This document shows, piece after piece, positions 2,542-12,770 of a stretch of DNA of 13,147 nucleotides. The position numbers were made by a program, and so were the translations under genes. The DNA lies in assembly GCA_031288005.1 (NCBI GenBank), contig JAITSE010000052.1:1-13147 (forward strand), in the 5' to 3' direction. The DNA is from Treponema sp. (GTDB taxonomy: Bacteria > Spirochaetota > Spirochaetia > Treponematales > Breznakiellaceae). The notes below the pieces were generated by a model. That model had not been told where the DNA came from and did no database searches. It worked only from the letters and a program-made list of their open reading frames with translations. Each line of letters begins with the position of its first letter. Within the stretch, counting starts at the first letter, position 1.

Positions 2542-2571
2542 TTGCCTTTCTTTGCCTATGTTTGTTATATT
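2542..2571 (+). promoter_or_regulatory. predicted sigma70-type promoter of the efflux operon
   Basis: A -35-like TTGCCT (2542-2547) and a -10-like TATATT (2566-2571) are separated by 18 bases. Transcription would begin near 2578, about 27 bases before the regulator ATG. The -10 end and start site lie inside the 30-bp palindrome at 2571-2600, which fits repression by steric block. The match to consensus is moderate. Confidence 0.5.
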
Positions 2572-2600
2572 TTATGTTAACGACCAGTCGGTAACATAAA
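2571..2600. promoter_or_regulatory. 30-bp near-perfect palindrome, likely TetR operator
   Basis: The left arm TTTATGTTAACGAC (2571-2584) and right arm GTCGGTAACATAAA (2587-2600) pair at 13 of 14 positions around a central CA; the single mismatch is 2580 against 2591. It overlaps the predicted -10 box and transcription start and ends four bases before the ATG of a TetR-family gene. TetR/AcrR repressors characteristically bind palindromes of this size in their own promoters, so autorepression of the whole operon is the natural inference. Confidence 0.7.
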
Positions 2601-2604
2601 GCGT

Positions 2605-3891
2605 ATGAAAAAAGAAGATATTATCCGGGCGGCCTTCCGGGTGTGGGGCCGGAAATTGTACCAAAGCATCAGTTTGACTCACCTGGCGAAGGAATTAGGA
2701 GTTACCAAACCCGCGTTGTACCGGCACTTTCCCAATAAGCAGGCCCTGCTGGACAGTATGTATGAATGGTTTCTTGACGATTTCGCGGCTTTCGTCCGGG
2801 ATGATTACGCCAGGGCCGCGTCCGCGAAAGACCTGGCCGAGGCAATTCTGATCCCGGGTAGGGCGGTGGCCCGCTACTATTGCCTCAATTTGGACGCTTT
2901 TCTCTTTGCCCTGCTTTATGTTTACGGCAGCAAGAGCGGCGGGATCATGGAAGAGGAGCTTGCCGGGCGGGGCGTTGATATGCGGCGCTTTTCCGGGCCC
3001 GGTGCGGATTCATCGGTCTATCCTTCGCCGGCGCAGCTTGTTATTCTCACTTTGATGTTTTGGATATGCTCCTTTCACAAACGCATCTTTGAGCCTGAGC
3101 CTGGGGAGTACCTTCCGGAAGAGCATCAGCCTCTGGATGTGGAAAAAGCCCTGGTTGCTATGGAGGAAAAACTGCTTTACGGCCTAGGTTTTGACAAGGG
3201 CAGGGTTGACGCGCTGGATTACCAGGAGCTTGAGGAGCGGACAGCCGGTCTTGTTCCTGGTGACATTAATGATGACGGGCTTTACAGGGCGGCCGCGGGT
3301 GCGCTTGCCGAGGCGGGGCCTTGGGATGTGTCTATGGAGATGGTGGCCCGCAGATCGGGGATATCCAAGAGCGGGCTTTACTCCCATTTCAGAAACCGGC
3401 AGGAAATGATCCGCAAGTTTTTTTTGACTGAATTTGAGCGGATCGCCGCTTCCGCCGGCGCCGGCATGGAAAAATCCACCGCGCCTGAAGATCGGCTTTA
3501 CCTCGCGATTATCGGGATTGCGGATTACCTGCGCGCACGGCCTGAGATTCTCCTCGCTCTTGATAAGATACGGACGCGGAAGCTGGAACTGGGCCTCCCT
3601 GAGACTCTCAGATTCCATCTGATTTTTGAGGGCGTCAATGCCGGAGACCTAGACGCCAGCAGCCCGGCTGCGGAAGCGGCTTCCAGGTGGATACTCTTTC
3701 TTATTGTCAACGCTCTGATGCGTTACAGAGAGGGGGGGGGGGGGGGGAGTGAAATGTCCGGGCCTTTCTGTTTTGGGGAGGTAAAAAATTCCTGTTTCAG
3801 GATTTTATACCGGTTTATCGCATTGGGTATCCGTGGATTTGACGCCGGGAAAAACGGCGCTTCTTCTGAGACAGCTTCTGAAAGGCTTTAA
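2605..3891 (+). CDS. tandem (double-domain) TetR-family regulator of the efflux operon
   Basis: This 428-residue protein contains two complete TetR-type DNA-binding domains in one chain. The first (about residues 5-52) carries LTHLAKELGVTKPALYRHF, and the second (about 224-270) carries MEMVARRSGISKSGLYSHF. Each is followed by about 150 helical residues that would form a ligand and dimer domain. Normal TetR repressors are about 190-220 residues, so this is roughly a head-to-tail fusion of two. One chain could act as an intramolecular dimer or join two operators. The ATG has no Shine-Dalgarno sequence in front, and the operator palindrome occupies that space, so translation may be weak. A 16-G run falls at residues 376-381, near the C-terminus (see separate entry). 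The gene is first in the operon for a TolC-adaptor-RND pump, so it probably senses pump substrates. The family call is firm; the ligand is unknown. Confidence 0.9.
   Translation: MKKEDIIRAAFRVWGRKLYQSISLTHLAKELGVTKPALYRHFPNKQALLDSMYEWFLDDFAAFVRDDYARAASAKDLAEAILIPGRAVARYYCLNLDAFLFALLYVYGSKSGGIMEEELAGRGVDMRRFSGPGADSSVYPSPAQLVILTLMFWICSFHKRIFEPEPGEYLPEEHQPLDVEKALVAMEEKLLYGLGFDKGRVDALDYQELEERTAGLVPGDINDDGLYRAAAGALAEAGPWDVSMEMVARRSGISKSGLYSHFRNRQEMIRKFFLTEFERIAASAGAGMEKSTAPEDRLYLAIIGIADYLRARPEILLALDKIRTRKLELGLPETLRFHLIFEGVNAGDLDASSPAAEAASRWILFLIVNALMRYREGGGGGSEMSGPFCFGEVKNSCFRILYRFIALGIRGFDAGKNGASSETASERL
3732..3747 (+). repeat. G16 homopolymer inside the regulator gene
   Basis: Sixteen consecutive Gs encode the end of Glu376 and Gly377-Gly381. 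Poly-G runs of this length are classic slipped-strand sites. With one G fewer, the frame reads about 12 altered residues after the glycines and stops at a TAA. With one G more, it meets TGA straight after the tract. Either change removes the last 40-50 residues, which should be part of the second effector/dimer domain. The run could also be miscounted in the assembly. Confidence 0.85.
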
Positions 3892-4025
3892 GCTATGACG
3901 TTTGAGCAAAAATGTTTTTTATGGCCGCGCTGTATGCGGGCCTATCGCTATGAATGACAGGACGGATTCGGCGCAGCGCGTTTCGTTCGTCATTGCGGGA
4001 CCGTCCGGTGAGGTGGAGTCCGCGC

Positions 4026-4031
4026 AAGGAG
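4026..4031 (+). promoter_or_regulatory. ribosome binding site that sets the TolC-like gene start
   Basis: AAGGAG is followed by 5 bases and ATG at 4037. The earlier in-frame TTG at 3902 has no comparable site, and starting there would place 45 extra polar residues before the signal peptide. The bases between the regulator stop (3891) and this site show no convincing promoter, which suggests read-through from the regulator promoter. Confidence 0.7.
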
Positions 4032-4036
4032 CCGCT

Positions 4037-5569
4037 ATGATTCAAATGGATTACAGCGCCGCAGGATTGGCCGGGGAAAGCTCCGGGGGCCTGGGGCGGA
4101 AATTACGGCCTGGGGGAAAGGGGATTAAACTTTTGTTTTTCCTGATCTGGGTTTTGCCGGCCGGGAAGTCCGGACTTTTCGCTCAGGCGGGCCCTGGCGC
4201 GGAAAGCTTCGCGGCGCCGCAGGGCATAATACTCAGGATTTCCCCTGACGAAGCGGTTAAAAAGGCCGTGAAAAACAACCTTGGTCTGGAATCGGCTAGG
4301 CTTAGCGCGGAAAACAAAAAACGGGCTTCCGATACGGCGTGGAATGTGTTTATCCCCAGCGTGACTTTGGGAGGAAGCCTGACCCGGGATAACACCGCGG
4401 CGGCCGGTACGAACATGATCCCGTATCAGCTTCCCGATCCGGCGCCTATGGGCCTTTATGGGATTATTCTCCATCCCTACGAATCCCCCCAGTGGCACGC
4501 GACTGGTTCTGTTCAGACATCGCTTAACATCAATTTCGCCATGTTTGAAGCCATGCGTCGGCTGCGTCTGGATTATGAAGGCGGACTTTTGAGTTACGAA
4601 AAGGCCAGGTCCCAGCTTGAGCGGGATGTCCGCAAATCTTATTATCAGATGCTGCTCCTTCAAGAAAATATCGCCCTGCTGCGGGAAAACTATGATGCCG
4701 CGGAACGGCGGGTCGTTATGGCCGGGGCGAACTACCGGGCCGGGCTGGTACCGGAACTGAGCCTTTTGCAGGCCCAGGTTTCCGTAGAAAACATGAAGCC
4801 TTCCGTCGATCAGGCGGAAAACGGCCTCAAACTGGCTATGGCCCAATTCGCCATGAATTTAGGCTTAGGCTATGACGCCCGCTTTGAATTGATTCCCGTG
4901 GAGGAGGGTTTCGATTTTATTCCAATGGATGTGGCTGAACTGATCCGCCAGGCTTCGATAAATAAACCTGAAATTCAGGAACTGCGGCAAAATATCCTGG
5001 TTTCGGAAAGCGGCAGAAAGGCCGCGAAGCAGCGGGCGTATACGCCAAACTTAAGTTTAAGCTGGAATTTTAATTCAGTCTTTACCCGGGATCCCTGGAA
5101 TGATTCCTGGTTTGACAGCGACAATTGGAGTCGTTCTGGTTCCCTTACTATAGCCCTGGGTTTTCAACTCCACAACCTTCTTCCTTGGAGTCAGGATATT
5201 CAGAGTATTAAAAGCATTGACGACAATATCCGCAGCCAAAACATCATCCTTGCCCAGGCGATCCGGGGAACGGAGATTGAAATTTACAGTACCTTGCTTT
5301 CCCTGGAAAAAATCCGGACTACTGTGGAGGCTCAGGAATACACAGTGAATCTGGCGGAGCGCTCCTATAAATTGACTGAAGAAGCCTACCGGGCCGGTCT
5401 GACAGAATTGCTGGAGATGCAGAATGCGGAGTTGGAACTCCGCAAGGCCCGGATCGGGGTTTTGGAGCAGGATTTCAGCTATATCCAGGGCCTTATCGAT
5501 CTTGAATATTCTATGGGGGTCCCTTTTGGGACTCTGAGTTCACGCATACACTCAGGAGAAAAACAATGA
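4037..5569 (+). CDS. TolC-family outer-membrane efflux channel
   Basis: From the ATG with the best ribosome binding site the protein has 510 residues, usual for the outer membrane efflux protein (OEP) family. These form trimeric channels through the outer membrane and periplasm. A long polar N-region (about 30 residues) precedes the hydrophobic core IKLLFFLIWVLPA, with a probable cleavage region near GLFAQA. Two repeated OEP halves follow. The first opens with PDEAVKKAVKNNLGLESARL, typical of the family. The second starts at AELIRQASINKPEIQELRQ and ends with the coiled-coil segment LAERSYKLTEEAYRAGLTEL. The stop overlaps the start of the adaptor gene (ATGA), indicating translational coupling. 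It should dock with the adaptor and RND pump encoded next. The unusually long N-region leaves the exact start somewhat uncertain; ATG 4046 and TTG 4067 are alternatives. Confidence 0.9.
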   Translation: MIQMDYSAAGLAGESSGGLGRKLRPGGKGIKLLFFLIWVLPAGKSGLFAQAGPGAESFAAPQGIILRISPDEAVKKAVKNNLGLESARLSAENKKRASDTAWNVFIPSVTLGGSLTRDNTAAAGTNMIPYQLPDPAPMGLYGIILHPYESPQWHATGSVQTSLNINFAMFEAMRRLRLDYEGGLLSYEKARSQLERDVRKSYYQMLLLQENIALLRENYDAAERRVVMAGANYRAGLVPELSLLQAQVSVENMKPSVDQAENGLKLAMAQFAMNLGLGYDARFELIPVEEGFDFIPMDVAELIRQASINKPEIQELRQNILVSESGRKAAKQRAYTPNLSLSWNFNSVFTRDPWNDSWFDSDNWSRSGSLTIALGFQLHNLLPWSQDIQSIKSIDDNIRSQNIILAQAIRGTEIEIYSTLLSLEKIRTTVEAQEYTVNLAERSYKLTEEAYRAGLTELLEMQNAELELRKARIGVLEQDFSYIQGLIDLEYSMGVPFGTLSSRIHSGEKQ

Positions 5570-6549
5570 AGCGTACAGTGACGGCTTTTCTATATATGGT
5601 TCTTATCCCGGCGGCCATGTTGTTTTCGGCCTGCGGGCAGATTAGCGCGATCCGGGAACGCATTACCGGGAGCAAAGGAGCCTCCGCGCCTGGCGGGGCT
5701 CCCGCTGTCCAGGAACGGCCTGTTTTTGCGGTGAACACCACTACCGCATCCCAGGGCCAGATCCGGGATTACCTTGCCCTTTCAGGGGATATCGCCGCGG
5801 GATCCACAGTTGAGGCATATTCCGACATGGCGGGAAAGATTACCCGGGTTTTTACGGCAGTGGGGAGACGGGTCAACCGGGGAGATCCAATTGCGGAGAT
5901 TGACCCTTCCAGGCCAGGTATGAACTACATCCCTGGCATCGCCGCGGCCCCGGTATCGGGGATCGTAGTGGCCCTCCCGGCCCAGGTAGGAATGACCGTG
6001 GCTCAGACCGTGCCGCTGGCCCGGATCGCCGCGGGCAATGTCCTGGAAATCCGGCTTTTTGTGGCCGAGCGGTTCATCTCGAAAATGGCCCTGTGGCTTT
6101 CCTGTGAAATCACCCTGGACGCATATCCCGGGGAAGTCTTTCAGGGGCGGATCACCGAACTATCTCCAGTAGTAGACCCCGCATCCCGGACCATGGAGGT
6201 CAAGGTTGGCGTAACCAATATGGGCAATAAACTTAAAGCGGGAATGTTCGCCAAGGTGAGAGTCATTACGGAAACGAAAAACAACATTGTTAAGATTCCC
6301 GCATCCGCCATGATGCAGCGCTTTGGGGAAAGTTATGTCTTTGCCGTGGAAACAGACCCCGCGGATCCGGCCTTCCTAATAGCGCGGAAGAGGATAGTGG
6401 TTCCGGGGATTTCTATAGACGGCGCGCTGGAAATACAACAGGGACTAAACCCAGACGAGGAAGTGATCCTCCGGGGTCAGACGCTTCTGGAAGACGGGTC
6501 CCGGGTCAATGTGATTGAGCGGATAGCGCCTTTAGGTATAGATAATTAA
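5566..6549 (+). CDS. periplasmic adaptor lipoprotein of the RND pump, lacking the helical hairpin
   Basis: This 327-residue membrane fusion protein (HlyD/AcrA type) links pump and channel. The N-terminus (MKRTVTAFLYMVLIPAAML, then FSAC) is a lipoprotein signal with the acylated cysteine at C23. Phenylalanine at the -3 position is a relaxed lipobox of the kind spirochaetes tolerate. Lipoyl half 1 is about residues 86-113 (EAYSDMAGKITRVF, then GDPIAEID) and half 2 about 127-154 (AAPVSGIVVALPAQVG). Only some 13 residues join them, where AcrA has a coiled-coil hairpin of dozens. A beta-barrel (about 160-235) and a membrane-proximal domain follow. Borrelia BesA is a known hairpin-less adaptor, so this suggests a BesABC-like assembly. 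AGGAG (5554-5558) lies 7 bases before the ATG, which overlaps the upstream stop. Confidence 0.9.
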   Translation: MKRTVTAFLYMVLIPAAMLFSACGQISAIRERITGSKGASAPGGAPAVQERPVFAVNTTTASQGQIRDYLALSGDIAAGSTVEAYSDMAGKITRVFTAVGRRVNRGDPIAEIDPSRPGMNYIPGIAAAPVSGIVVALPAQVGMTVAQTVPLARIAAGNVLEIRLFVAERFISKMALWLSCEITLDAYPGEVFQGRITELSPVVDPASRTMEVKVGVTNMGNKLKAGMFAKVRVITETKNNIVKIPASAMMQRFGESYVFAVETDPADPAFLIARKRIVVPGISIDGALEIQQGLNPDEEVILRGQTLLEDGSRVNVIERIAPLGIDN

Positions 6550-6562
6550 TAAGGAGTTTACC

Positions 6563-9500
6563 ATGAGTTTTGCCAAAGCGGTCGTCTCCCGGCCCACTAC
6601 TGTTTTTATTATTTTCGCCCTCCTCATCATGCTGGGGGTTTTTGCCTTTGTGAACCTCCCGCTGGATCTCCTCCCTGAAATCAACCCCCCCTATTTGGTG
6701 GTATCCACCACATACACCGGGGCCGGTCCGGAAGAAGTTGAGCGCACCGTAACCCGTACTTTGGAATCGGCACTTTCCAGCGTATCCAGCCTGGAAAAAA
6801 TCAGTTCGACTTCCGCCAAAGGCTCCAGCATGGTGATGATGGAGTTTACCTATGGGACAGATCTCGCGGACGCTTCGAATTCCGTGAGAGACGCTTTGGA
6901 GCGGGTAAGAAACTACCTCCCGAGCGAGGCTGATGTCCCTCTTATCTTCAAAATGGATCCATCGATGATGCCCATCATGGGGCTCATGTTGACCGGAAAC
7001 CGCAGCCCGGAAGAACTACGGGAACTCGCGGAGGACACCATCATCCCCCGCATAGAGCAGACGCCGGGAGTAGCAGCCGCGTCTGTAAGCGGCGGCAGGG
7101 AGAAGATCATCCGCGTGGAGATACCCCAGTTCAGCCTAGAAGCCTACGGCCTTACGATTACCCAGATACAACAGATGCTGGCCTCCCAGAACCTGCAAGT
7201 TTCCGCCGGGACTATTGTTGAGGGCGGCACATCCTACATACTCACTACGATGGGGGAGTATACGTCCCTTGACCAGATACGAAACACCGTAATCGCCTAC
7301 AAGGGCGGAGGCGCCGGCGCGTCCGGAATGGAACCGCCCCGCCGGGTGTACCTGCGGGACATCGCGGACGTGATTGAAGGGTTTCGGGATGAGCAAAGCG
7401 TGGTATTCGTTAACGGACAGCCGGCGGTTCAGATGACTGTGCAGAAGCAGAGCGGCAAGAACTCTGTTCAAACAGCAAAAGAACTACGCTCCAGACTTGT
7501 CCGTATTGCCAAAGAAATCCCCCAGGACATCAAAATCAGCGAAACTTTTAATACAAGTGACCAGATTGAGAATTCTATTAAACAAGTCGGGTCCAGCGCC
7601 ATATCCGGGGCGATTCTTGCTGTAGTGATACTGTTCATTTTTCTTCGTTCAATCAAGCCGACATTGATTATCGGCATTAGTATTCCTATCTCCTTGGTCA
7701 TTACTGTCATGCTGATGTATTTTGCCGGCCTTACATTGAATCTTATGACCCTGGCTGGTCTCATACTGGGAGTAGGAATGCTGGTGGACAACTCTATAGT
7801 TATACTTGAAAATATTTACCATTACCGGGAGAAAGGGGCTAAGCTTGCCACTGCGTCGGTGCTGGGTACATCTGAGATGTTTACCGCTATTGTTGCATCC
7901 ACTCTCACAACAATTTGCGTATTTGCTCCCCTGGTGATGTTTCAAGGGCTTCTGGAAATGGCGGGAGAAATGTTTGCGGGTCTTGCCTTTACGGTGGTCA
8001 TTTCTCTTGCGGCTTCTCTGTTTGTAGCGGCCTTTCTGGTGCCGGTTCTTTCAAGCCATTATTTCCCCCTGGTAACCCGAAAACAGAAGCCTCTCAGCGG
8101 CCCCTTGGCCGCCGTGGACCGCGTTTTCGGCGGTTTCTTTAACAGTCTGGACAACGCCTACCGCTGGGCGGTAGATAAAGTGCTGCGGCACAAAGCCGCG
8201 GTAATACTCATTTTGTTGTTTATCTTCATAGGAAGCCTGGCTCTTATTCCGCGGATAGGCTGGGTCTTTATGCCCAGCCAGGAAGCTGATTCTGTGACTA
8301 TCAATGCGACACTGCCTCTTGGGACCCCGCTTTCGGAAACCGAAGCTGCTCTGCGCCGCATGGAATTACTGATAGAAAAAGAAGTGCGCGGGTATGAACG
8401 CATTGTACTGAACGCTGGCGGCGGCGGGATGTTCAGCACAGGCGGCAGCAACTCAGGTTCCCTGCGTATTAATCTGCCTAAATATGAAGAGCGCATAGAC
8501 AGCGCAGACGACATTAAGGCCAAGATGCGGGCCCACTTCAATGAATTCCCCGGCGTAAGTTTTAGTTTTTCGGGCGGCATGATGGGCGGCGGCATGGGTG
8601 GAACCCCCGTAGATATAGTTCTCAGGACGGAAGATTTGGTAAAAGGCAAGGCCGTGGCGCAGCGTATCTCGGCGCTTCTAAGAGAGCGGATGACGGATGT
8701 AACAGAACCCAGGGTAAGCCTTGAGGACGGTCTCCCGCAGATCGAAATCAGGCTTGACAGAGAACGGATGTACGCGCTGGGACTCAATGCAATCACTGTC
8801 GGCACTGAGATACGGGCCGCTGTGGACGGCGTTACAGCCACCCGCTACAAATCAGGCGGCCACGATTACGATGTTGTGCTGATCCTTGCTGAAGCCGATC
8901 GCAATGCCCGCCCGGCGCTTGACCGCATTTTTGTGAATAGTCAGACGGCTGGACGGGTCCCCCTGTCCAGCTTTGCTTCCTATGACGAAGGGACCGGCCC
9001 CATGAACATAAGCCGGGAAAATCAGAGCCGTGTCATCCACGTTACAGCAGGCGCAGTCCCAGGAACCAAGCTCAATCAGCTTGAAGATAAGGTACGAGCG
9101 TTGATCGCATCGGAAATACCGGCGGAAGACGATATACTCATTGAATACGCTGGCGACAATGCGGATATGATGAAGATGATGAGCCGGTTTTTGCTAATTA
9201 TGATAGTAGCGGTGTTCCTTGTCTTCGGCGTTATGGCAAGCCTCTTTGAATCCTTCCGGGACCCCTTCATCATCATTTTTACTATTCCCCTTTCGGTGAT
9301 AGGAATTGTGGCGATTTACTTTTTCACAGGCGAGACTTTCAATATTCTCACCGCGGTAGGACTGCTCGTACTCGTGGGCGTAATCGTTAATAACGGCATA
9401 GTCCTCGTGGACTACACAAATCTCCTCAGAAAGCGAGGTCTCCCACTGCACGCTGCCTGTGTTGAAGCTGCGGGCAGCCGGCTTCGTCCTATTTTGATGA

Positions 9501-9760
9501 CCACTCTTACTACTATCCTGGGCCTTCTGCCAATGGCCTTCTTCCCAGGCGAAGGCTCAGAGTTGGTGGCTCCTATAGGCAAGACAGTATTGGGGGGCCT
9601 TTCCTTCGGCACTCTGATGACCCTTTTCCTTATGCCTACGGTGTATTACATTATGAACAAGCGTTCTGACGAACGGGCGGACCGGGCTGAAGCTAGACGG
9701 CAGCGCATCGCGGAGGGCTTGTCTGGAAGAAAAACGCGGTCCGGGGAGGCGGCAAAATGA
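6563..9760 (+). CDS. RND-family multidrug/solute efflux transporter
   Basis: The 1065-residue length and architecture are those of AcrB-type pumps: TM1 (about 12-32), a porter domain, TM2-6 (about 343-500), a second half with TM7 (about 543-562), a second porter domain, and TM8-12 (about 873-1032). Proton-driven export from periplasm or inner membrane to the TolC channel is expected. The TM4 relay motif is GMLVDNSIVILENI: D409 matches the first aspartate of AcrB's pair (D407), but the second is N410. The TM10 motif is VGVIVNNGIVLVDY, with Asn where AcrB has K940. That pattern is common in the SwrC-like branch rather than AcrB. It therefore fits the broad HAE/multidrug class more than heavy-metal CusA. 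A Gly/Met-rich loop (about 670-681) is notable. AAGGAG (6551-6556) is 6 bases before the ATG; the stop overlaps the next gene. Confidence 0.95.
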   Translation: MSFAKAVVSRPTTVFIIFALLIMLGVFAFVNLPLDLLPEINPPYLVVSTTYTGAGPEEVERTVTRTLESALSSVSSLEKISSTSAKGSSMVMMEFTYGTDLADASNSVRDALERVRNYLPSEADVPLIFKMDPSMMPIMGLMLTGNRSPEELRELAEDTIIPRIEQTPGVAAASVSGGREKIIRVEIPQFSLEAYGLTITQIQQMLASQNLQVSAGTIVEGGTSYILTTMGEYTSLDQIRNTVIAYKGGGAGASGMEPPRRVYLRDIADVIEGFRDEQSVVFVNGQPAVQMTVQKQSGKNSVQTAKELRSRLVRIAKEIPQDIKISETFNTSDQIENSIKQVGSSAISGAILAVVILFIFLRSIKPTLIIGISIPISLVITVMLMYFAGLTLNLMTLAGLILGVGMLVDNSIVILENIYHYREKGAKLATASVLGTSEMFTAIVASTLTTICVFAPLVMFQGLLEMAGEMFAGLAFTVVISLAASLFVAAFLVPVLSSHYFPLVTRKQKPLSGPLAAVDRVFGGFFNSLDNAYRWAVDKVLRHKAAVILILLFIFIGSLALIPRIGWVFMPSQEADSVTINATLPLGTPLSETEAALRRMELLIEKEVRGYERIVLNAGGGGMFSTGGSNSGSLRINLPKYEERIDSADDIKAKMRAHFNEFPGVSFSFSGGMMGGGMGGTPVDIVLRTEDLVKGKAVAQRISALLRERMTDVTEPRVSLEDGLPQIEIRLDRERMYALGLNAITVGTEIRAAVDGVTATRYKSGGHDYDVVLILAEADRNARPALDRIFVNSQTAGRVPLSSFASYDEGTGPMNISRENQSRVIHVTAGAVPGTKLNQLEDKVRALIASEIPAEDDILIEYAGDNADMMKMMSRFLLIMIVAVFLVFGVMASLFESFRDPFIIIFTIPLSVIGIVAIYFFTGETFNILTAVGLLVLVGVIVNNGIVLVDYTNLLRKRGLPLHAACVEAAGSRLRPILMTTLTTILGLLPMAFFPGEGSELVAPIGKTVLGGLSFGTLMTLFLMPTVYYIMNKRSDERADRAEARRQRIAEGLSGRKTRSGEAAK

Positions 9761-10116
9761 TCCGTATAGAAATTATAGCTAACCATTCGGTTGAAGAAAA
9801 CATTTTGGAAGCCCTTCAGCGTGAAGGAGCGGGCAAGTATTACACGAAATATCCCGGCGTATATGGCGTTGGCTCCGCCGGCCCCCGCATGGGAGACGCG
9901 ATCTGGCCGGAAGAAAACTTCGCCATTGTTATCTGGTGCGATGAAGATGAAGCGGACCGCATAGCCCGCGCAGTATCAGTTGTGAAGGTTCATTTTCCCG
10001 ATGAGGGTATAAAGATGTTTGGCCTCCCGGAAAATCAGCAGTCAGGTGATGTTCCGGCAGGCGGCGGCGGAAAAAAAATATCTGGAAACGACGATACTGG
10101 AGACGCGGGGAAATAG
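9757..10116 (+). CDS. small PII-like (ferredoxin-fold) protein coupled to the RND gene
   Basis: This 119-residue soluble protein overlaps the transporter stop by ATGA and has GGAGG (9745-9749) 7 bases before its start, so it is co-translated with the pump. Residues 1-92 read as beta-alpha-beta (MIRIEIIANHSVEENILEAL), a loop rich in Tyr/Gly/Pro (YYTKYPGVYGVG), then a second beta-alpha-beta (FAIVIWCDEDEADRIARAV, VKVHFPDEGIKMFGL). That order resembles PII/CutA-like trimeric proteins. A PII subgroup is known to sit beside RND efflux genes. The tail (about 95-119) is polar, with GGGGKK. No classical PII T-loop tyrosine motif or nucleotide-binding signature is clear to me, so the family is a fold-level inference. 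A regulatory or substrate-sensing role for the pump is plausible but unproven. Confidence 0.7.
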   Translation: MIRIEIIANHSVEENILEALQREGAGKYYTKYPGVYGVGSAGPRMGDAIWPEENFAIVIWCDEDEADRIARAVSVVKVHFPDEGIKMFGLPENQQSGDVPAGGGGKKISGNDDTGDAGK

Positions 10117-11878: not shown

Positions 11879-12770
11879 GACTTGTTTAAAAACCCTAAAG
11901 ATGTTATAATAATGACATGGGCAAGGGAAAAAAGGCAGCGGATGCCAAAGCGGTTCGTTTCAAACGGTTGTTCGGGGTGAAACCCGGTACATTTGAAAAA
12001 ATGTTGTCAATTTTACAAAGGGAATACGATGCTTTGCACGAAAAAGGTGGTAAACCGCCAAAATTGACGGTCAAAGACAAGCTGTCTATTACCCTGAAAT
12101 ACCTGCGGGAGTACCGGACTATGGACAGTATCGCGGCGGAATACGGCGTTTGCAAGGGCACGGTCTGCCTGTCCATTCAATGGGTGGAAGACACTCTGAC
12201 AAAAGACGGCGCCTTCGCCCTGCCCGGGGAAAAGAAGCTCAAGAGAAAGTCGGCCTCAATTCAGTACGTTGTGGTCGATGTTACCGAAAGCCCCATAAAC
12301 CGCCCGAAAAAGGGCCAAAAAGCGTACTATTCAGGGAAAAAAATGGCGCACGCTGAAGACGCAGGTCATCATCGAGCGGAACAGTCTGCAAATCATAGAT
12401 GTGCAGGAAGCCAAAGGCAGCGAGCATGATTTCAAGGTATATTAAAGATACGATTGGAAAAAACATCAGCAATTCGATACCGCTTGACGCTGATCTTGGA
12501 TACATGGGGATAGAACAATACCATACAAACAGTTTCATACCGATAAAATCAAGCAAGAAACATCAACTGACCGGAGAGGAAAAAGCGTATAACAGGGAGC
12601 TTGCGGGGAGACGGGTTGTCATTGAGCATATCAATGCCAAAATAAAAACATTCAAAAGCATGGCATATCCTTACCGGGGACATTGCTGTAATCGACATTC
12701 ACTGAGAATGACTTTGATTTGTGGTATCATAAACTATGACAGGCTGGTTTAGGGGGTTTTTAAACAAGTC
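11879..12770 (+). mobile_element. IS5-family-like insertion sequence, 892 bp
   Basis: The ends are terminal inverted repeats. The left end begins GACTTGTTTAAAAACCC (11879-11895) and the right end carries its exact reverse complement (12754-12770), with similarity extending to CCTAAA on both sides. A TA dinucleotide flanks each end (11877-11878 and 12771-12772), consistent with a TA target duplication used by some IS5-family elements. One transposase gene fills it, broken by two frameshifts. It sits between a flavodoxin-type pseudogene and the toxin gene, damaging both. Confidence 0.85.
11917..12752 (+). pseudogene. IS5-type DDE transposase with two frameshifts
   Basis: Segment 1 (11917-12351) gives 145 residues with a helix-turn-helix (about 50-95: LTVKDKLSITLKYLREYRTM, then SIAAEYGVCKGTV) and the first catalytic aspartate in YVVVDVTESP (D121). 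Two bases are missing near 12352. Segment 2 (12353-12442) reads LKTQVIIERNSLQIIDVQEA then KGSEHDFKVY. One extra T at 12443 leads to segment 3 (12444-12752), with the second aspartate in LDADLGYMGI and the catalytic glutamate in RRVVIEHINAKIKTF. Repaired, the product would be about 278 residues, normal for helix-turn-helix/DDE transposases of the IS5 family. No ribosome binding site is evident before the ATG. Because the frameshifts are not at a recognised slippery site, I read this as inactivation (or sequencing error) rather than programmed frameshifting. Confidence 0.85.

Follow-up and report, generated by a model that had tools for sequence, protein, structure and literature searches.

A G16 tract in the gene of a tandem TetR regulator as a candidate contingency locus of a Treponema efflux operon

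Can a run of sixteen Gs inside the coding sequence of an efflux regulator act as a switch, leaving some cells of a spirochaete population with an active pump and others with a repressed one? The question is raised by a 13,147-nt stretch of Treponema DNA, here called the window, in which a sequence-only reading had suggested that such a tract may render the regulator of a drug pump phase-variable. Here, we approach it using domain and homologue searches, structure prediction and translation of the slipped frames, complemented with a survey of the orthologous genes and genomes of relatives.

The regulator, its operon and a putative operator

The gene that carries the tract (2605..3891, plus strand) encodes a tandem, two-unit TetR-family regulator of 428 residues. 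TetR_N is matched twice by Pfam, with one helix-turn-helix in each half of the protein, and the NCBIfam TetR models match residues 2-74 and 220-301. The layout is further supported by homologues (368 found, of which 120 were listed and served as input for AlphaFold2) and by the resulting model, which is all-helical with a pLDDT of 88.7 and a pTM of 0.89. The best match of this model in the PDB is Mce3R (9b7y), a TetR regulator of Mycobacterium tuberculosis that aligns with the two-unit model over 428 columns (E 4e-4), a distant match with a TM score of 0.42 of the query and 18% identity. Mce3R, which we take to be a tandem TetR protein itself, has targets that differ from those of the window's regulator; the latter protein is represented by one sequence (P0001, 1 member).

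What does the regulator control? On the same strand, 145 nt past its stop codon, starts a gene for an outer-membrane efflux protein (OEP/TolC-like; 4037..5569; Pfam, NCBIfam), for which the ATG at 4037 is favoured over the TTG at 3902 because of an AAGGAG at 4026-4031. It is followed, also on the plus strand, by the genes for an RND periplasmic adaptor (MFP; 5566..6549; Pfam, with TIGR01730 above its cut-off) and an RND permease (ACR_tran in Pfam; 6563..9760). The best NCBIfam model for the permease, that of a multidrug RND permease, matches below its cut-off, as do all 25 of the NCBIfam models shown (31 matched). This arrangement is kept in relatives: among loci that extend far enough, the OEP gene lies immediately 3' of the regulator gene in 116 of 126, and OEP, MFP and RND genes are all found 3' of the regulator in 55 of 55. 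The protein had been called an efflux regulator from sequence alone, and this identity is upheld by a two-unit TetR gene heading an OEP, MFP and RND operon. We regard the latter as a putative RND multidrug efflux operon, with drug export as its predicted function.

The operon is closed by a gene for a PG0541-family transporter-associated protein (P-II-like; 9757..10116, plus strand; NF045581 above cut-off), a family with matches in 41 loci including the window and located 3' of the pump in eight relatives shown. Elsewhere in the window, a perfect 26-bp tandem repeat of 4.5 copies occupies the contig start (1-118) and an IS5-family transposase is present as two overlapping pieces in different frames (11917-12752); a search of the window against Rfam gave no match.

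Upstream of the regulator gene lies a sigma-70-like promoter (2542..2571, plus strand) consisting of TTGCCT, an 18-nt spacing and TATATT with a TG ahead of the -10, with 9 of 12 matches. One such site against a mean of 1.4 in shuffles of the region is weak if taken alone, and the site draws its support from its placement just ahead of a palindrome. This operator-like palindrome, GTTAACGACCAGTCGGTAAC (2576..2595), is part of a longer inverted repeat (2571-2600) and is situated directly 3' of the promoter-like site and 5' of the regulator start codon. Allowing at most three mismatches, the pattern GTTAMCGAMCNKTCGKTAAC occurs upstream of the regulator gene in 136 of the 140 loci with enough upstream sequence to be scanned, with an exact copy in 100, and in none of 1400 base-shuffled upstream regions. 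Among the four misses, an exact copy lies just beyond the scanned region in L034, and in L212 and L221 a copy is located 3' of the gene. A copy 22-138 nt 3' of the regulator gene is seen in six loci (L079, L209, L212, L214, L221 and L226), where it possibly belongs to a separate pump promoter.

The exact pattern is present in 112 of the 195 genomes of the family, at more than one place in 11 of these, with no exact match in the other 83; a reversed palindrome, used as a control, is absent from all 195. Because the exact palindrome mostly occurs at one place per genome where it is found, the regulator most likely governs only its own operon, itself included. The regulator-pump operon is probably self-repressed, with the palindrome as its predicted operator.

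The G16 tract and the predicted effect of slips

The tract (3732..3747, plus strand) starts at the third base of a GAG codon and runs through five GGG codons, in frame inside the 428-aa reading frame. It is the sole G or C run of at least nine bases on either strand of the window. All eight matches to G9 on the two strands fall within it, and a chance origin was discarded since none of 200 shuffles of the window (maximum six) reached that number.

Gain of one base leads to a TGA right behind the tract (GAG-TGA; 3750..3752) and a product of 382 residues, and loss of one base leads to a TAA at 3782..3784, 12 codons past the tract, and a product of 392 residues; upon translation, about 47 native residues are missing after either slip. 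The sequence-only reading is accurate in these respects: the position of the run and its inclusion in the coding sequence are exact, the TGA follows straight after the tract, the TAA lies about 17 codons on when counted from the first G, and the loss falls within the 40-50 C-terminal residues that had been proposed.

Where in the protein does the tract reside? The homologue alignment and the AlphaFold2 model place it in a loop of unit 2 whose length differs greatly among homologues (residues 378-394; 3736..3786) and which separates a helix of residues 354-377 (3664..3735) from the last long helix, residues 395-417 (3787..3855). By analogy with TetR, we take these helices to be alpha-8 and alpha-9 of unit 2. 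The last long helix contributes to the dimer interface in TetR proteins, and residues 399, 401, 404, 408 and 411 are among those that are nearly invariant in the homologues. This helix is gone after slips of one or two bases. Judged by translation, unit changes in the tract toggle by frame between full-length and truncated regulator; changes of three bases in either direction are probably harmless, with the glycine stretch sitting in a loop without length constraint.

These features suggest how a switch could operate. The 428-aa protein, as a covalent "dimer" of two TetR units, would bind the palindrome just past the -10-like box and repress its own operon, comprising the regulator, the OEP, the MFP, the RND permease and the PG0541-like protein. 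A slip of one or two bases would remove the last helix of unit 2 and derepress the pump in the cells concerned, and a back-slip would restore repression. The gene in which runs recur would then be a contingency locus through which gut spirochaetes hedge the expression of the pump. Such a model presumes that the full-length protein represses, that truncation abolishes its function, that the tract slips and that the population would benefit.

Runs in the orthologous genes of relatives

Relatives were collected with a profile built without P0051 and P0111; 231 loci of at least 100 bits among the matches listed yielded 151 unique ones after removal of identical loci. For the best 80 of 156 loci, the record titles refer to genomes of Treponema, Spirochaetaceae or Spirochaetia, and the isolate codes presumably point to termite guts; we infer a gut origin for the relatives. 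A G or C run of at least nine bases is present within the gene or at its end in 39 of the 151 orthologues. The frame is kept, with conserved flanks on both sides, in 28 of these runs and is split in one (L249), and ten are not judgeable as they lie at the C-terminal end or at a contig end. For runs of at least 11 bases the corresponding numbers are 25 in frame, none out of frame and eight not judgeable.

That 28 of the 29 judgeable runs stay in frame indicates selection on the frame and an advantage of the full-length protein in the bulk of the population. The same number makes frequent harmless slipping unlikely, as more than one "off" gene in 29 would then be expected in assemblies. The single exception, L249 (2490-3688), is a tandem TetR ortholog with two parts in different frames around a G10; it could be an "off" allele, or result from decay or error.

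With L249 left aside, 35 of the 36 runs of at least ten bases could be mapped onto the protein, L228 only roughly (residues 341-386) because its contig ends there. They form six site groups and include both G and C runs. Ten, the window's included, lie between the last two long helices, four lie 5' of this helix pair (L039, L214, L220 and, roughly, L228), three are at residues 331-336, and the inter-unit linker, unit 1 and the C-terminal tail have six each. By a loose criterion, the mapped span includes a predicted loop for 31 of the 35 runs. On a FastTree of 142 of the 151 rows, in which nine short rows were left out and 46 of 139 inner branches are weakly supported, tract presence changes at least 19 times, gains and losses not being told apart. 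A single conserved tract was discarded as an explanation, since the runs are at differing places and most rows have none. The make-up of the locus agrees with a phase-variable pump repressor that regulates itself, and the strongest new evidence for it comes from this repeated occurrence of runs in one and the same gene.

Does the length of the run differ between relatives? A fixed G16 would, according to the sequence-only reading, speak against a switch, and the comparison between species goes partly its way and partly the other. The nearest relative with DNA, L001 (58% identical), has a G15 in this loop as well, at its opposite end; no run is present in L002, which falls into one starred group of the tree together with L001 and the window. 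Lengths differ at the C-tail site (C10, C14, C17 and C20 between species) and near residues 371-388, where one clade has G11, G12 and G12 and another G15 and G15. On the other hand, the linker site has a G14 in all six species (L230, L232, L234, L235, L236 and L247) and looks stable. All of these comparisons are between different species.

The sites also differ in what a slip would do. It deletes the conserved helix in the window, and likewise in the majority of the other loop cases that were translated. In the clade of L018, L025, L026, L032 and L041, the run coincides with the end of the last long helix or lies beyond it, and a slip alters the tail only, with the fold kept upon translation; L030 and L031 likewise have C-tail runs, near contig ends. 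The notion that every tract is an on/off switch is weakened by this clade.

Switch, tolerated run or artefact

We judge it fairly probable that the G16 is one of several contingency tracts that have recurred in a repressor devoted to one pump, with the "on" state prevailing in the assemblies. The main rival, and a serious one, is that a mutational bias towards long G/C runs lets tracts grow wherever in-frame poly-glycine or poly-proline is harmless, as it would be in the loops of this regulator, with slips being rare nulls that are purged and without an adaptive switch. We consider this neutral account possible but doubtful. How do the two fare against the distribution of runs?

Runs of at least 11 bases number 29 in 178,421 nt inside the regulator gene, against none in 477,123 nt of pump genes (170,646 nt of OEP, 101,460 nt of MFP and 205,017 nt of RND genes), seven in 567,629 nt of other flanking DNA, and four in the 60 nt 3' of the regulator gene. 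The run in L257 was tallied as "other", though it is just 5' of a match that covers the gene only from the second unit onwards, a choice that counts against enrichment in the regulator gene. Per gene, 29 of 151 regulator genes have such a run, compared with none of 37 other TetR genes (p = 0.0016); per base, the control TetR genes hold none in 22,248 nt, with 3.6 expected at the density of the regulator gene (p = 0.069). Kinship among the rows renders the Fisher and Poisson p values too small, so that significance is overstated, and the control, drawn from 23 genomes picked for having a tract, is small and made up of shorter proteins with fewer long loops. It comprises 50 of the matches listed, 30 picked automatically and 20 by hand, minus 12 target genes and minus L366, which seems to be a truncated target gene to judge by its score and its location where a contig begins. 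Of the remaining 37, two have a run in the 60 nt 3' of the gene.

Across the 195 genomes, 5,369 runs of at least 11 bases in 483.3 Mb amount to 1.1 per 100 kb, with a median of 0.6 per 100 kb and between 0 and 279 runs per genome (maximum in G064). Such a spread within one family suggests differences between lineages in repair or selection. A run in the regulator gene or within 60 nt 3' of it is found in 31 genomes, a list compiled by hand, whereas about 2.8 would be expected for average DNA of 1.24 kb; the regulator gene thus stands about elevenfold above the genome average. Genomes with a run in the regulator gene are richer in tracts overall (median of 2.2 per 100 kb, versus 0.5 in those without).

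Tolerated growth finds support in part of these data. Runs are common genome-wide and it is the richer genomes that have one in the regulator gene, as a purely mutational origin predicts; the frame is intact in nearly all judgeable runs; the runs reside mainly in loops, in both units; and those of the C-tail clade would leave the fold intact. It accounts less well for the elevenfold excess in the regulator gene and for the absence of runs inside the pump genes and the 37 other TetR genes, the latter a small control of 22 kb. The suggestion of a phase-variable regulator stands in part: the run is real, its slips truncate the protein ahead of the last long helix, and runs are enriched over pump genes, flanks and other TetR genes, while length variation within a population and loss of repression by the truncated protein are predictions.

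Might the tract tune expression in another way? A frameshift stop may alter how far translation or the transcript reaches into the pump, by polarity or coupling, or slips may alter the length of the tail. The regulator and pump genes are indeed close together on one strand, slips in one clade touch only the C-terminal tail, and slips in Mga are known to cause a tail polymorphism (PMC10330708). We nevertheless give this account a very small chance, given that the window and most loop cases lose a conserved helix and that loss of the repressor is the simplest effect.

Scarcely credible, finally, is a false or mis-sized run from poly-G read ends or homopolymer errors: runs do cluster at contig ends in the two genomes described below, but the window's G16 lies in the interior, with 3.7 kb to one end and 9.4 kb to the other, which discards a contig-end artefact as the only cause, the judgeable runs are in frame in 28 of 29 cases, unlike random errors, and runs at shared sites recur across different assemblies.

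Known switches and the wider occurrence of runs

Pump regulators with indels at homopolymers are known from M. tuberculosis, where the regulator Rv0678 (MmpR5) belongs to the MarR family and MmpL5 is an RND protein. Indels in Rv0678 are concentrated at homopolymers of 5-7 bases (PMC10187448) and its mutations derepress the MmpL5-MmpS5 efflux transporter (PMC10353445). The likeness to the window is that of a pump regulator with homopolymer indels, but the runs of Rv0678 are short and the mutations are selected for resistance, whereas the window's regulator has a long tract. Phase variation of regulators themselves is likewise known. In BvgS of Bordetella pertussis, a change from C6 to C7 in a coding poly-C truncates the regulator and switches virulence genes (PMC1891110); as in the window, a homopolymer lies within a regulator coding sequence and one extra base truncates the product, but BvgS, a sensor kinase, acts widely on virulence, unlike a tandem TetR protein that probably serves one operon, has a G16 and is known from one sequence. 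In Mga of group A Streptococcus, slips in a C8 within the regulator gene give non-functional and longer functional C-terminal forms (PMC10330708). Mga shares with the window a poly-C/G tract in the gene of a transcription regulator, but it belongs to another family, regulates M protein and has demonstrated reversion, whereas the window's tract is known from sequence alone.

Poly-G tracts whose length is variable within one population are known from Treponema pallidum, which bears the same genus name, at tpr genes and tp0126. The cases described concern promoter tracts of outer-membrane protein genes (tprL with 7-11 Gs), and a few of the listed tracts are inside reading frames (PMC7864442). The accessible parts of two other M. 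tuberculosis papers hold nothing bearing on the pump-repressor locus (PMC9184757, PMC9579286). Judged by titles and the starts of abstracts, no report of a TetR pump repressor switched by a coding homopolymer was found among the matches listed, nor one of phase variation in termite-gut Treponema, the matches on Treponema phase variation being on T. pallidum or syphilis. Regulator phase variation is thus already known from BvgS and Mga; what is new is a tandem TetR repressor in which long runs occupy many places.

More broadly, and rather tentatively, we propose that in uncultured gut Treponema an autorepressor of an RND pump has repeatedly been made into a contingency locus by independent gain of poly-G or poly-C in different loops, with some cells always derepressed, and that it is a member of a large undescribed phase-variable set which includes solute-binding proteins and another regulator. 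If true, bet-hedging would have evolved convergently in an efflux system that belongs to symbionts rather than pathogens, and the switch would be a regulator of one operon only. Two questions could then be put to the test at one locus: are long coding homopolymers selected or just tolerated, and do gut symbionts, in the face of toxic compounds, hedge without acquiring genes?

Beyond the pump-repressor locus, the genomes of two relatives were surveyed for runs of at least 11 bases, 98 places giving 93 runs after removal of repeats. Close to contig ends, within 130 nt, lie 47 of the 93, which fits assembly breaks from mixed lengths or read errors; the sequence of L030 terminates with 69 Gs. Of the 46 tract-bearing reading frames, 30 were compared with Pfam, which assigned 13 to a family. 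Tracts inside or close to genes for regulators and uptake systems are thus not confined to the pump-repressor locus. In L277, L310, L318 and L335, the G or C run is in the first part of extracellular solute-binding protein frames, and L307 is a PTS permease. L301 (147-1183, minus strand; genome G001) is an AraC-type regulator with a G21 between its sensor and DNA-binding domains, the two parts being in different frames, and is likely an "off" allele of a second regulator.
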